64,000 nucleotides of DNA from Peredibacter starrii (GTDB lineage Bacteria > Bdellovibrionota > Bacteriovoracia > Bacteriovoracales > Bacteriovoracaceae), in assembly GCF_034259205.1 (NCBI RefSeq), contig NZ_CP139487.1, positions 2,356,001-2,420,000 on the forward strand, written 5' to 3'. The notes under the pieces were generated by a model that was not told the origin of the DNA, did no database searches, and worked only from the letters and a program-made list of their open reading frames with translations. Made by a program: the position numbers and the translations under genes. Shown in pieces: positions 57,021 through 60,623 of the stretch. Each line of letters opens with the position of its first letter. The stretch's first letter is position 1.

Positions 57021-57380
57021 ATGAAAATCCTCTTCCTGGTTTTCACCTTCCTTGCTCTCATGCTCACTGGCCATGCTCAAAAACAAACTTCGCAGTACAC
57101 CTGCCAGGCCTCACACAAACACTCTGAAGTGGGTTTTGTGATGGACATTGGCGCCACTCGCACAGTTAATGTCGGCGGCTGGGACCTTAAAATCAGTATC
57201 GAGCGAGTCAATAAAATGATCGAGGTCTCAGTTTCCCGCGCGGTAAATGTCTTGGATGCAACTTATCGCCGAGAGGCCAAGCGCAGTTATCCAACAACTG
57301 CTCGCACTCTCCCGGTAGAGTTAGTGCACGATTTCGGTGGCAAACAGGACGTATTTAACGTTATCTGCTTTCCTCGTTAA
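57021..57380 (+). CDS. Small secreted protein of unknown function
   Basis: 119 residues from ATG 57021, chosen because of GGAG just upstream. Signal peptide (ILFLVFTFLALMLTGHA), then a beta-rich mature domain with two Cys (TCQA near its start; ICF at its end). No family recognised. The stop overlaps that of the anti-sigma gene. Confidence 0.6.
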   Translation: MKILFLVFTFLALMLTGHAQKQTSQYTCQASHKHSEVGFVMDIGATRTVNVGGWDLKISIERVNKMIEVSVSRAVNVLDATYRREAKRSYPTTARTLPVELVHDFGGKQDVFNVICFPR

Positions 57381-57901
57381 TACCTGAGTGTGGCGTGCTT
57401 TAAGAACATGGTACTTCTCATTTTAAGGAGTGCCCATTGGGCCACCACTGCCGATACAATCCACATCACGTGATAAGAAATTGATTCACCTGTCAGATCG
57501 AGTGAAATATTGGTCAACATCAGCCCACTCCAAAGAATGGCCGGAAGAAAGATAAGTGAAAACTTATAACGGTTCCAAACCCACCAAAGCTCTTCGCCCT
57601 TCATTCCAATGAAGGCCACCATGAGTCCGGCAGATAAGAAGAGAGATCCACAAAAGGCCGCACAGGCCCAATCACCAATCATACGCACCATATGAGTGAT
57701 GCCGTGACCATCCACTAGTCCTAGTCCAAATTGCGGACACACCGACATTGAAAACAATGCCCCTAAAAGCTGGAAGCCCAAGAACTTAGCAATAATAGAT
57801 TTCGCGTGGAAGCTTAAGAGAATGTCTTTCTTTGCCAGAGACTTTAAATGCTCCGGGACACTTTCTTTTCCAGTCATAAATTCTAAAAATTCTTTATTCA
57901 T
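57377..57901 (-). CDS. Membrane anti-sigma-like protein (NrsF-type)
   Basis: 174 residues with a short cytoplasmic N-terminus (MNKEFLEFMTGKESV...) and about five membrane helices. Two Cys in or near helices (SVCPQF; ACAAFCG) recall the paired Cys of NrsF/DUF1109 anti-sigma factors. It overlaps the ECF sigma gene by 8 bases, which is the usual place for a cognate anti-sigma. The assignment is from context and topology rather than a clear motif. Confidence 0.65.
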   Translation of the reverse strand: MNKEFLEFMTGKESVPEHLKSLAKKDILLSFHAKSIIAKFLGFQLLGALFSMSVCPQFGLGLVDGHGITHMVRMIGDWACAAFCGSLFLSAGLMVAFIGMKGEELWWVWNRYKFSLIFLPAILWSGLMLTNISLDLTGESISYHVMWIVSAVVAQWALLKMRSTMFLKHATLRY

Positions 57902-58397
57902 AGAGTTTGTTCCTTAAACCTCTAAGTGTTCTAGATAGACGTTGGCGAAGGTTCGCTTGTGACAACCCAGTTTCCATTTCTAATTCTTCGTAACTAAATC
58001 CCTCAAGATAGTACTTACGAACCAAATCTTGAGATTCCTTTGGAAGAGTCTCCAGGAGTTCTTCCAGACCATCATCTTTGAGGTCCTGATGATAGATTTT
58101 TTCAATCAATTCATCCTGGAACTCTTGTTTATTAAGCCTTCCTAACGATCGATACTCATCAATCAATAAGTGCTTCATCATAACAAAGAACCACGGTGCA
58201 AATGGCTGATCCTGATAGAGATGTCTCTTCTCATGGAGCTGCCGCCAGACCTTTTGATAAAAGTCTTCTGACTCCGAAGTTCGCAAACGTTTTCTGATGA
58301 ACCCGTAAACCATAGGGGAGTATTTTTCATAAAGTTGCCCGAAGGCCACTTCACTCCCCTTTACGTATTCGCGCATCAGCTGTTCATCAGTTTTCAT
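57894..58397 (-). CDS. ECF-family RNA polymerase sigma factor
   Basis: 167 residues. Region 2 is visible (FGQLYEKYSPMVYGFIRKR; EDFYQKVWRQLHE) and region 4 carries the helix-turn-helix (YYLEGFSYEELEMETGLSQ). Regions 1 and 3 are absent, as in ECF sigma factors. It is cotranscribed with a membrane anti-sigma and with metal-binding proteins. It likely recognises the ECF-like promoter before the operon. Confidence 0.92.
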   Translation of the reverse strand: MKTDEQLMREYVKGSEVAFGQLYEKYSPMVYGFIRKRLRTSESEDFYQKVWRQLHEKRHLYQDQPFAPWFFVMMKHLLIDEYRSLGRLNKQEFQDELIEKIYHQDLKDDGLEELLETLPKESQDLVRKYYLEGFSYEELEMETGLSQANLRQRLSRTLRGLRNKLYE

Positions 58398-58411
58398 AGA
58401 CCCCTATTGTC

Positions 58412-58786
58412 TCACATTAATTTTGGGAGAACAAAGGCGTAAAACGCGCCGATAAGATTAATCACCAAGGTGACGTAGAAGAGCGGCTTCGACCAATTCT
58501 TGGTATTTTGACAGTCTTCTTTCTTATCAATGGGACAGACTTGTTTCTCTGCGTATTTTTGTCCAGCAAAGGACACCGCAAGCATGAAAAAGCTCAGTCC
58601 AAAAACCAGTTCTTTATTTTCAGAGAGCCAAATGAGTTGCGGGAACTCGCCCAAAAAACTCGCTAGACTTGCTCCGAAACCTAAAAGCACCAACGTCGAT
58701 GGAATCGCACAACAAATGAGCGTTCCAAAAGACGAGAACAAGCTTAGGTAGCTTATAATTTTATTTTCTTTCGATCGAAGCAACAT
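58412..58786 (-). CDS. MerT-like membrane protein
   Basis: 124 residues with three or four membrane helices. A vicinal Cys pair lies in the first helix (GTLICCAIPS) as in MerT-type metal importers, and two further Cys are in the loop (VCPIDKKEDC). Its start overlaps the preceding MerP-like gene by 26 bases. Metal identity is unknown: Hg, Cu and others are possible. Confidence 0.75.
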   Translation of the reverse strand: MLLRSKENKIISYLSLFSSFGTLICCAIPSTLVLLGFGASLASFLGEFPQLIWLSENKELVFGLSFFMLAVSFAGQKYAEKQVCPIDKKEDCQNTKNWSKPLFYVTLVINLIGAFYAFVLPKLM

Positions 58787-59030
58787 TGTATCCTGCCTCT
58801 GTAATTAGTTTTGTGATCGTCTCATTTGAAACATCCTGGTCACCTGTTTCAAATTTTACAAATTTATTTGATAGGTCCACATTTAAATTTTTTACTCCAA
58901 GGCCAGAAAATTTCTTTTGAATTCCCTGAGCACACATGGAACAAACCATACCATTTACTTTTACATTTATTTCCGTAGCCATAACGTTCATTGCTCCTAA
59001 CATTAAAAATACTGCTAATAATTTCTTCAT
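58761..59030 (-). CDS. Periplasmic heavy-metal-associated (MerP-like) protein
   Basis: 89 residues: signal peptide (LLAVFLMLGAMNVMA) and an HMA domain with the metal site GMVCSMC (CxxC). Ends like a MerP/CopZ ferredoxin fold. It would bind a soft metal in the periplasm and pass it to the membrane protein encoded next. Confidence 0.88.
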   Translation of the reverse strand: MKKLLAVFLMLGAMNVMATEINVKVNGMVCSMCAQGIQKKFSGLGVKNLNVDLSNKFVKFETGDQDVSNETITKLITEAGYNVASIERK

Positions 59031-59037
59031 ATGCCCC

Positions 59038-59658
59038 CTAATAATGAACCATGAGATTTAGCATCCAGTCGCCGCGGGTCGAGGATCCAATTTCCCATAA
59101 TACATTCTGATAAAAAAATCTAAGCATCGGCGTGATCATGACGGTTTCATTTAAGTCATCAATGACCATCCCTTGCACCATGAACCAAGTCTGAAGACTG
59201 TTAAAGTCCGCAATCGCCGGAGAAAATCCCACACGTGCTTGGGTCATGGATAAATCTGAAAACTGATAGTACTTCAATGCTGTGTAAAGGACGCGGGTCT
59301 CCCAGTCGGCCTCAGCACCAACTACATAATCTCCAAAGGTCCCACGAGGCTGCCATTCCTGATCTCGAACACCCACGCCACCATGGACATAAAGATTGGC
59401 CTGGTAATCTTCGCCATTAGCACGCCAAAGAAGATGATTCAGTTTTAAAAAACCCATTTCAGTGTTCGCCTTCTCCTGAGAGAAGCGCCAATGATCTACT
59501 CCAATGGCAAATTTATTGGTGAAGGAATACATGACATAGTTATTCGAGTAATCCTTCATATTGGATGAGCTTATGGCCCAGCCATCCTTATAAATCACCG
59601 GATGGGCGAAACTTTTAAATGAGAACAACAGAGCTGCAAATGTGATTAGCTTTTTCAT
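59038..59658 (-). CDS. Outer-membrane-like protein of unknown function
   Basis: 206 residues: signal peptide (LITFAALLFSFKSFA) and a mature part of alternating aromatic beta strands ending in Y (MLNLMVHY), which suggests a small outer-membrane barrel. No known family. First gene of the sigma/metal operon. An ECF-like promoter ends seven bases before the ATG. Confidence 0.6.
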   Translation of the reverse strand: MKKLITFAALLFSFKSFAHPVIYKDGWAISSSNMKDYSNNYVMYSFTNKFAIGVDHWRFSQEKANTEMGFLKLNHLLWRANGEDYQANLYVHGGVGVRDQEWQPRGTFGDYVVGAEADWETRVLYTALKYYQFSDLSMTQARVGFSPAIADFNSLQTWFMVQGMVIDDLNETVMITPMLRFFYQNVLWEIGSSTRGDWMLNLMVHY

Positions 59659-59665
59659 GCACTCT

Positions 59666-59694
59666 ATAACGGTGGGGGCCTCCTTTTTGTGACA
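59666..59694 (-). promoter_or_regulatory. ECF-type promoter of the metal operon
   Basis: On the minus strand TGTCACA (59694-59688) and CGTTAT (59671-59666) are 16 bases apart, the layout of ECF promoters. The -10 ends seven bases before the first ATG, implying a leaderless mRNA. Likely target of the sigma factor encoded in the same operon. Confidence 0.5.
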
Positions 59695-59729: not shown

Positions 59730-59758
59730 TTGACCATTCCGTATCTTTTCCGTATTGT
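59730..59758 (+). promoter_or_regulatory. Promoter of a leaderless HNH gene
   Basis: TTGACC (59730-59735) and TATTGT (59753-59758) are 17 bases apart, ending seven bases before ATG 59766. A longer frame would start with the TTG of the -35 box, which I reject. Confidence 0.55.
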
Positions 59759-59765
59759 TTCTAGC

Positions 59766-60623
59766 ATGAGACTAAATCATGTTGCAAATAAAATTTTACT
59801 AAGTGACACAAAAAAATTGGCGGGTGCTGAAAGAGAAGCAACTGTAAAAGTGCTTCATCATTTGAAAGAAATAGATAAAAGAAAGCTTTATTGCGATTTG
59901 AAGTATTCCTCTCTATTCGCCTATTGTGTCCATGAATTAGGTTATTCAGAAGGAGCGGCCCAAAGAAGAATCGTCGCCGCCCGAGCTATTGCTGAGATGC
60001 CAGAGATTGAAAAGAAAATCGAAAACGGAAGCTTGAATCTAACTAATATTTCATTAGTGAATCAATTTATTGAAGATCCTATTCAAAAGCGTGAAGTCTT
60101 TAAAGAAGTAGAGAATCTAACTAAGAATGAATGCGAACAAAAACTATTTGAAATAACAGGTAAGGAAGCAAAACCTAAAGACAAAAAGAAGCGCGTATCA
60201 AAAGACAAAATCCAAGTTGCGTTTGTACTTAAAGATGAGACCCTGGCCTTGGTGGACAAGCTCAAAAATCTTATCGGCAGAGAAATGGAAATGGATGAAC
60301 TCGTCCAATTTATGGCGAAGAAGGCCATAGAAGCGGTCGAAAAAACAAAGTTCAAACAAACAAAACCTCGCAAATCACTTCCGCCAGCGAAAGTAGGAAG
60401 AGTCATTTCTGCATCGGTAAAACGGGAAGTGTATACGAGAGATAAGAAATGCACGAACTGTGGATCAACTCGTAATCTTAATTATGATCATATTCTCCCC
60501 TACTCGATGGGAGGGCCAAATACCAAAGAGAATTTGAGATTATTGTGCTCTCCTTGCAATCAAAGAGCGAGGATTAAGGCGGGACTTTTGGCCCCGCCCG
60601 GGAAACTACATGTCTACAAGTAA
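59766..60623 (+). CDS. HNH endonuclease-domain protein
   Basis: 285 residues. A helical N-terminal part (YSEGAAQRRIVAARAIAEMP) recalls DUF222-type proteins, and the C-terminus holds the HNH core: CTNCGSTRNLNYDHILPYSMGG split by paired Cys (CTNC, CSPC) with the NxxxLCSPCN end. Related multicopy HNH proteins are common in Bdellovibrio-like genomes. DNA target unknown. Base composition is more A-rich than its neighbours. The stop region overlaps the opposing gene by 18 bases. Confidence 0.85.
   Translation: MRLNHVANKILLSDTKKLAGAEREATVKVLHHLKEIDKRKLYCDLKYSSLFAYCVHELGYSEGAAQRRIVAARAIAEMPEIEKKIENGSLNLTNISLVNQFIEDPIQKREVFKEVENLTKNECEQKLFEITGKEAKPKDKKKRVSKDKIQVAFVLKDETLALVDKLKNLIGREMEMDELVQFMAKKAIEAVEKTKFKQTKPRKSLPPAKVGRVISASVKREVYTRDKKCTNCGSTRNLNYDHILPYSMGGPNTKENLRLLCSPCNQRARIKAGLLAPPGKLHVYK

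Follow-up and report, generated by a model that had tools for sequence, protein, structure and literature searches.

A predicted copper-stress sigma factor operon in Peredibacter starrii, with a putative internal promoter for the candidate anti-sigma gene

The stretch of Peredibacter starrii DNA analyzed here, referred to as the window, is 64,000 nucleotides long and contains five open reading frames that, as a preliminary description of this DNA had it, run in one direction, all on the minus strand. They encode an outer-membrane beta-barrel protein (59038 to 59658; 206 amino acids [aa], with a signal peptide and 12 predicted strands), an exported HMA protein resembling MerP and CopZ (58761 to 59030; 89 aa, with the motif GMVCSMC), a MerT-like membrane protein (58412 to 58786; 124 aa, with CC in helix 1 and a CPID..DC loop), an ECF sigma factor (57894 to 58397; 167 aa, regions 2 and 4), and a membrane protein that is a candidate anti-sigma factor (57377 to 57901; 174 aa, with N-terminal helices followed by four long, presumably transmembrane [TM], helices). 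The MerT-like gene overlaps the MerP-like gene by 26 bases and the start of the anti-sigma candidate overlaps the end of the sigma gene by 8 bases, as expected for one transcript. The divergent neighbor of the operon is an HNH endonuclease gene (59730 to 60623, plus strand) with weak similarity to DUF222. In relatives (loci L079 to L081 and L102), a TatD-like gene is instead the direct neighbor, and the HNH gene therefore looks like a local insertion.

The predicted operon promoter, P1 (59666 to 59694, minus strand; TGTCACAAAAAGGAGGCCCCCACCGTTAT), consists of a -35 element TGTCACA, a 16-bp spacer, and a -10 element CGTTAT. It is present as previously noted, with 7 bases between its end and the first ATG, a distance from which the operon mRNA may be nearly leaderless in this species. 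The sequence TGTCACA-N16-CGTTAT is unique in the 4.15-Mb genome, and the 64-kb window has two copies of the shorter pattern GTCACA-N16-CGT, compared with 0.2 expected. Both copies belong to this operon, one at its start and the other within the sigma gene.

To place the operon among its relatives (named genomes of the Bacteriovoracaceae and other Bdellovibrionota), 116 genomes of the class were searched, and 60 regions were fetched and mapped with iterated profiles. In the fetched loci, the three genes for the barrel, MerP-like, and MerT-like proteins make up one fixed module, present in 37 copies, and the sigma factor and the membrane protein form a fixed pair at all but a few incomplete loci; module and pair are each almost always whole. 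The two units are joined head-to-tail at 12 loci and divergently at 11, and the divergent arrangement recurs in other families of the phylum. P1-type sites were counted with one fixed pattern within 200 bp of a gene, with expectations taken from shuffles. Such a site precedes the barrel gene at 26 of 37 loci and the sigma gene at 18 of 40 (0.2 expected in each case), and the spacer is exactly 16 bp in 41 of the 45 sites. All 23 linked loci carry the site before the barrel gene: at the head-to-tail loci it lies before the barrel gene in 12/12 cases and before the sigma gene in 0/12, and at the divergent loci it lies before the barrel gene in 11/11 cases (L068 was read by eye, the automatically assigned start being too early at this locus). 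Stand-alone sigma genes often have the site before them (e.g., L103 to L105 and L111 to L116). The preliminary description had named two outcomes that would speak against it, namely, a match of the anti-sigma candidate to an unrelated family and a loss among relatives of both gene order and promoter site; many genomes conserve the gene set along with the promoter, in head-to-tail or divergent linkage, and thus neither outcome was seen.

In four genomes without a detected anti-sigma candidate (G011, G018, G019, and G035), the module has no P1-type site. Two observations count against reading the operon as a sigma-controlled switch: genome G048 retains the site even though no anti-sigma candidate was detected in it, and in G015 and G016, where a homologue of the candidate is present, some module copies have no site.

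The proteins of the module, which is conserved as a unit in Bdellovibrionota, largely bear out what had been proposed from the sequence. An AlphaFold2 model of the suspected barrel protein gives 12 strands (pLDDT 91.5). The protein has an invariant HPV after the signal peptide and matched no Pfam or NCBIfam family; in structure comparison its fold is like that of 12-stranded barrels in general (autotransporter domains, KdgM, and NanC), a likeness that says nothing about function. The periplasmic HMA protein matches PF00403 above the Pfam cut-off, and its score against the MerP model TIGR02052 is 26.2 bits, under the equivalog cut-off of 92.55 bits. The vicinal Cys pair noted in the MerT-like protein (C25 and C26, in helix 1) and a further pair in the loop (C84 and C92) are invariant in 37 sequences. 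The resemblance to MerT models is weak: the protein scored below every Pfam and NCBIfam cut-off (E value of 0.011 with the NCBIfam MerT model), and PF02411 was matched by 11 of 37 homologues (best E value, 9e-6). L064, L068, L069, and L072 have an additional promoter-like site, which falls within the barrel gene or at its end and precedes the MerP gene by about 20 bp. Exported proteins of 130 to 180 aa with the pattern CPM(A/I/V)K..W...ML(D/E)CG are found beside the module or in the regulon at L062 to L064, L066, L068, L072, and L137; the two tested had no Pfam match, and we assume that these proteins are possibly DUF3347-like.

The sigma factor was assigned as such by PF04542 (Sigma70_r2) and PF08281 (Sigma70_r4), both above the Pfam cut-off, and by TIGR02937 above its cut-off. 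It has no regions other than 2 and 4, extends 13 residues past L154 of region 4, and contains no Cys. The Cys-bearing membrane protein in the anti-sigma position, as it had been described, does have three invariant cysteines and keeps company with the sigma factor in relatives. The suggested check against NrsF/DUF1109 turned out negative. The protein matches neither, none of 46 homologues has a PF06532 match at an E value of ≤1, and hhalign against six NrsF-type sequences gave a probability of 0.9%, on which membership was rejected. PF06532 has no match in the P. starrii genome and is present in six other genomes of the same family. Against the six TM helices and two conserved cysteines of NrsF, the protein has four long helices and three invariant cysteines. 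It belongs to no family in Pfam or NCBIfam and matches no known anti-sigma family, and its homologues, found in 164 of 291 genomes of the phylum, form a separate, uncatalogued four-helix family. Invariant in this family are C55-P-Q, C80, C84, and W147. The AlphaFold2 model (pLDDT 90) has two N-terminal helices and then four long ones. No solved relatives were found by sequence and no significant match to the fold by Foldseek, and the best VIA-align match (Z score, 6.5) was set aside as within the background for helical bundles. According to the distribution of Lys and Arg, the N terminus, the loop between helices 2 and 3, and the C terminus are cytosolic. With this topology, the three cysteines, of which C55 is at the end of helix 1 and the other two are where helix 2 begins, probably lie together at the periplasmic face.

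Gene position, co-occurrence with the sigma factor, membrane topology, and the cysteines point to the membrane protein as a candidate anti-sigma factor. It could instead be a copper transporter or redox partner, with the sigma factor set by its own level or by another protein, since no known anti-sigma family was matched and the cysteines could serve transport. We regard this as improbable, because the protein accompanies the sigma factor almost without exception in the fetched loci, where the pair occurs also at loci without the transport module, because N-terminal helices precede the membrane part in the model, and because the putative internal promoter discussed below would supply the membrane protein in a sigma-dependent manner.

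The regulon was sought with fixed sequence patterns, using the reversed pattern as a control. The strict motif gave 34 sites in 13 genomes, compared with 0 for the control. With a looser pattern, the P. starrii genome had 14 sites and the control 3, so several of the 14 are due to chance; a strict-motif site at genome position 3165733, which falls within a gene and is followed by no gene start, is probably a chance match as well. In P. starrii, strict sites also lie upstream of genes for a multicopper oxidase whose N-terminal part has TIGR01480 as its best NCBIfam match, for an exported CPM...CG protein that has no Pfam match and looks DUF3347-like, for a TauE protein, and for a lipoprotein of 46 aa. 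Across the 13 genomes, other genes behind strict sites encode two more multicopper oxidases, two DUF411 proteins, an outer-membrane efflux protein (OEP), a haem-binding protein (Haem_bd), and a Cys-rich small lipoprotein, and MerP, barrel, and sigma genes also stand behind such sites; the multicopper oxidase matches include TIGR01480 and Cu-oxidase_3. At L172 (G112:C42), a 76-aa lipoprotein with a very high content of Cys, His, and Lys stands behind a perfect promoter site and is a possible periplasmic metal binder.

Some module copies without the sigma-type site carry other signals. The sequence ATACCCC-N3-GGGGTAT is found at L094, in a genome without the anti-sigma candidate, and at the copies in G016 and G015 (L087 and L096), and ACCTTCC...GGAAGGT is found at copies beside CueR/CopA-type genes. 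We take these palindromes to be CueR-like or CsoR-like operators. The copies that bear them adjoin genes for CueR (TIGR02044 above cut-off), Cu-ATPase-like, and CsoR-family proteins, and across the phylum the pair or the module adjoins Cu-oxidase and CsoR-family genes. Given the copper genes in the regulon and the copper-type regulators where the sigma factor is missing, the metal sensed is most likely copper. The Cys architecture of the MerT-like protein and the weak MerT and MerP model matches would also fit a mer-like mercury system, with inward transport of Hg(II) by MerP and MerT and a sigma factor that responds to mercury or general thiol stress. We rejected this as very unlikely, because none of the 26 genomes of the genus has a MerA above the TIGR02053 cut-off, because the regulon and the neighboring genes are copper genes, and because module copies without a sigma site can bear what we take to be CueR- or CsoR-like operators. 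The comparison supports the proposal of an autoregulated metal operon with a sigma factor and a candidate anti-sigma factor, and the metal is narrowed down, most likely to copper.

At seven loci of one genus, g6 (L088, L089, L091, L092, L093, L095, and L098), the region between the sigma gene and the metal module holds TACGTCACA-N10-TGTGACGTA with identical geometry. With such geometry, each half of the palindrome would be the -35 element in one direction and the -10 element in the other; alternatively, the site may be the operator of a dimeric regulator. Other lineages have back-to-back divergent sites with offsets of -3 to -24. At L086, the module retains the palindromic promoter although its genome, G048, yielded no homologue of the anti-sigma candidate.

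Beyond the preliminary description, we predict an internal promoter, P2 (57936 to 57964, minus strand; TGTCACAAGCGAACCTTCGCCAACGTCTA), inside the sigma gene. It sits in codons S146 to L154, i.e., in the recognition helix of region 4.2, 34 bp before the ATG of the anti-sigma candidate. All 16 members of this sigma subfamily, a sample largely from one genus, carry TGTCACA(A/G)-N15-CGT(C/T)T at 31 to 45 bp before the anti-sigma start, and their recognition helix reads (L/M)SQxxLR(Q/K)RLS. S146 is TCA and R153 is CGT in 16/16 sequences, and the codon for L/M145 ends in TG in 16/16, while identical residues in the subfamily share a codon in 46% of pairwise comparisons. Among 13 invariant six-fold codons, S146 and R153 are the only two with zero changes on the protein tree; the remaining 11 changed 4 to 10 times. 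Other sigma subfamilies are without the site, with one weaker exception (L069), and their codons and residues at these places vary.

The simplest reading, which parallels rshA inside sigH of Corynebacterium glutamicum, would be that P2 is a promoter for the anti-sigma gene alone, and it is probably sigma dependent and acts as feedback. The fixed bases TG-TCA-CAA...CGT might otherwise have been kept for RNA structure, for translation coupling to the anti-sigma start, or by recent ancestry. The distance of 34 bp to an overlapping start codon and the relatedness of the 16 sequences fit that explanation, which we nevertheless think unlikely: the fixed bases are exactly those of the -35 and -10 elements at 16-bp spacing, neighboring invariant six-fold codons changed repeatedly on the same tree, and other subfamilies vary at these places. 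P2 is confined to one small sigma subfamily, so its feedback role would not be general. With moderate confidence, we propose that the sigma gene encodes its own target, in that the DNA for the helix that recognizes the -35 element would be a promoter of that same sigma factor, kept by codon-level selection for a negative loop through the anti-sigma factor, as part of a copper regulon that spans the Bdellovibrionota and is governed by an undescribed family of anti-sigma factors, with the divergent promoter of one lineage now a palindrome.

The computation establishes the conservation of genes and promoters, the regulon content, and the codon-level constraint on P2. On this basis, we consider it quite likely that the operon is a self-amplifying copper-stress switch built from P1, P2, and a membrane anti-sigma factor. 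At rest, the four-helix membrane protein would hold the ECF sigma factor at the inner membrane. Excess periplasmic copper, probably Cu(I), would bind C55, C80, and C84 and release the sigma factor, which with RNA polymerase would fire P1 (TGTCACA-N16-CGTT) and yield the barrel, the HMA carrier, the MerT-like carrier, more sigma factor, and more anti-sigma factor. It would also fire matching promoters elsewhere, for the multicopper oxidase, the CPM..CG exported protein, the TauE protein, and the small lipoprotein, and P2 in its own gene, producing the anti-sigma factor alone so that the response is damped or ended quickly. We infer the anti-sigma activity, copper as the ligand, sensing by cysteines, the direction of transport, and the feedback role. 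Bdellovibrionota, which are predatory and have few known stress regulators, would thereby gain a predicted copper regulon whose promoter code is clear, and a family of polytopic membrane candidate anti-sigma factors absent from Pfam and NCBIfam is added. P2 may be a rare case in which the DNA-reading part of a regulator and its own target site share the same bases, and the MerT/MerP-plus-barrel module suggests a copper counterpart of the mer transport pair, linked to the outer membrane.

No description of this operon system was found in the open-access literature. SigF-NrsF of Caulobacter responds to metal stress with a small, autoregulated regulon (PMC3511200), and the NrsF pair is found also in bufferin clusters, which serve copper tolerance (PMC12452194). 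As in SigF-NrsF, an ECF sigma factor is paired here with a polytopic membrane protein bearing conserved cysteines. However, the anti-sigma sequences are unrelated by profile, four long helices and three cysteines stand against the six TM helices and two cysteines of NrsF (PF06532), the effector genes differ, and the promoter is TGTCACA-N16-CGTT rather than GTAACC-N16-CGAA. Like merTP, the module places the gene for a periplasmic HMA protein ahead of that for a MerT-like membrane protein, which carries CC and a pair of cysteines in its loop; unlike merTP, it comes with no merA above cut-off, with an added outer-membrane barrel, with ECF instead of MerR control, and with copper neighbors. CorE of Myxococcus xanthus controls copper genes, including multicopper oxidases, and detects copper with a Cys-rich domain at its own C terminus, with no known anti-sigma factor. 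The P. starrii sigma factor resembles this copper-dependent ECF sigma factor (PMC3107203) in its predicted control over copper genes including multicopper oxidases and differs from it in stopping after region 4, with no Cys and no CorE-type C-terminal domain. In sigH-rshA of C. glutamicum, experiments showed that the anti-sigma gene alone is driven by a sigma-dependent promoter located within the coding sequence of the sigma factor (PMC3489674), and the promoter predicted here likewise lies within the sigma gene and would serve the anti-sigma gene alone. That system is actinobacterial and, in the cited study, unrelated to metals, whereas the site described here coincides with recognition-helix codons and is conserved at the codon level across species.
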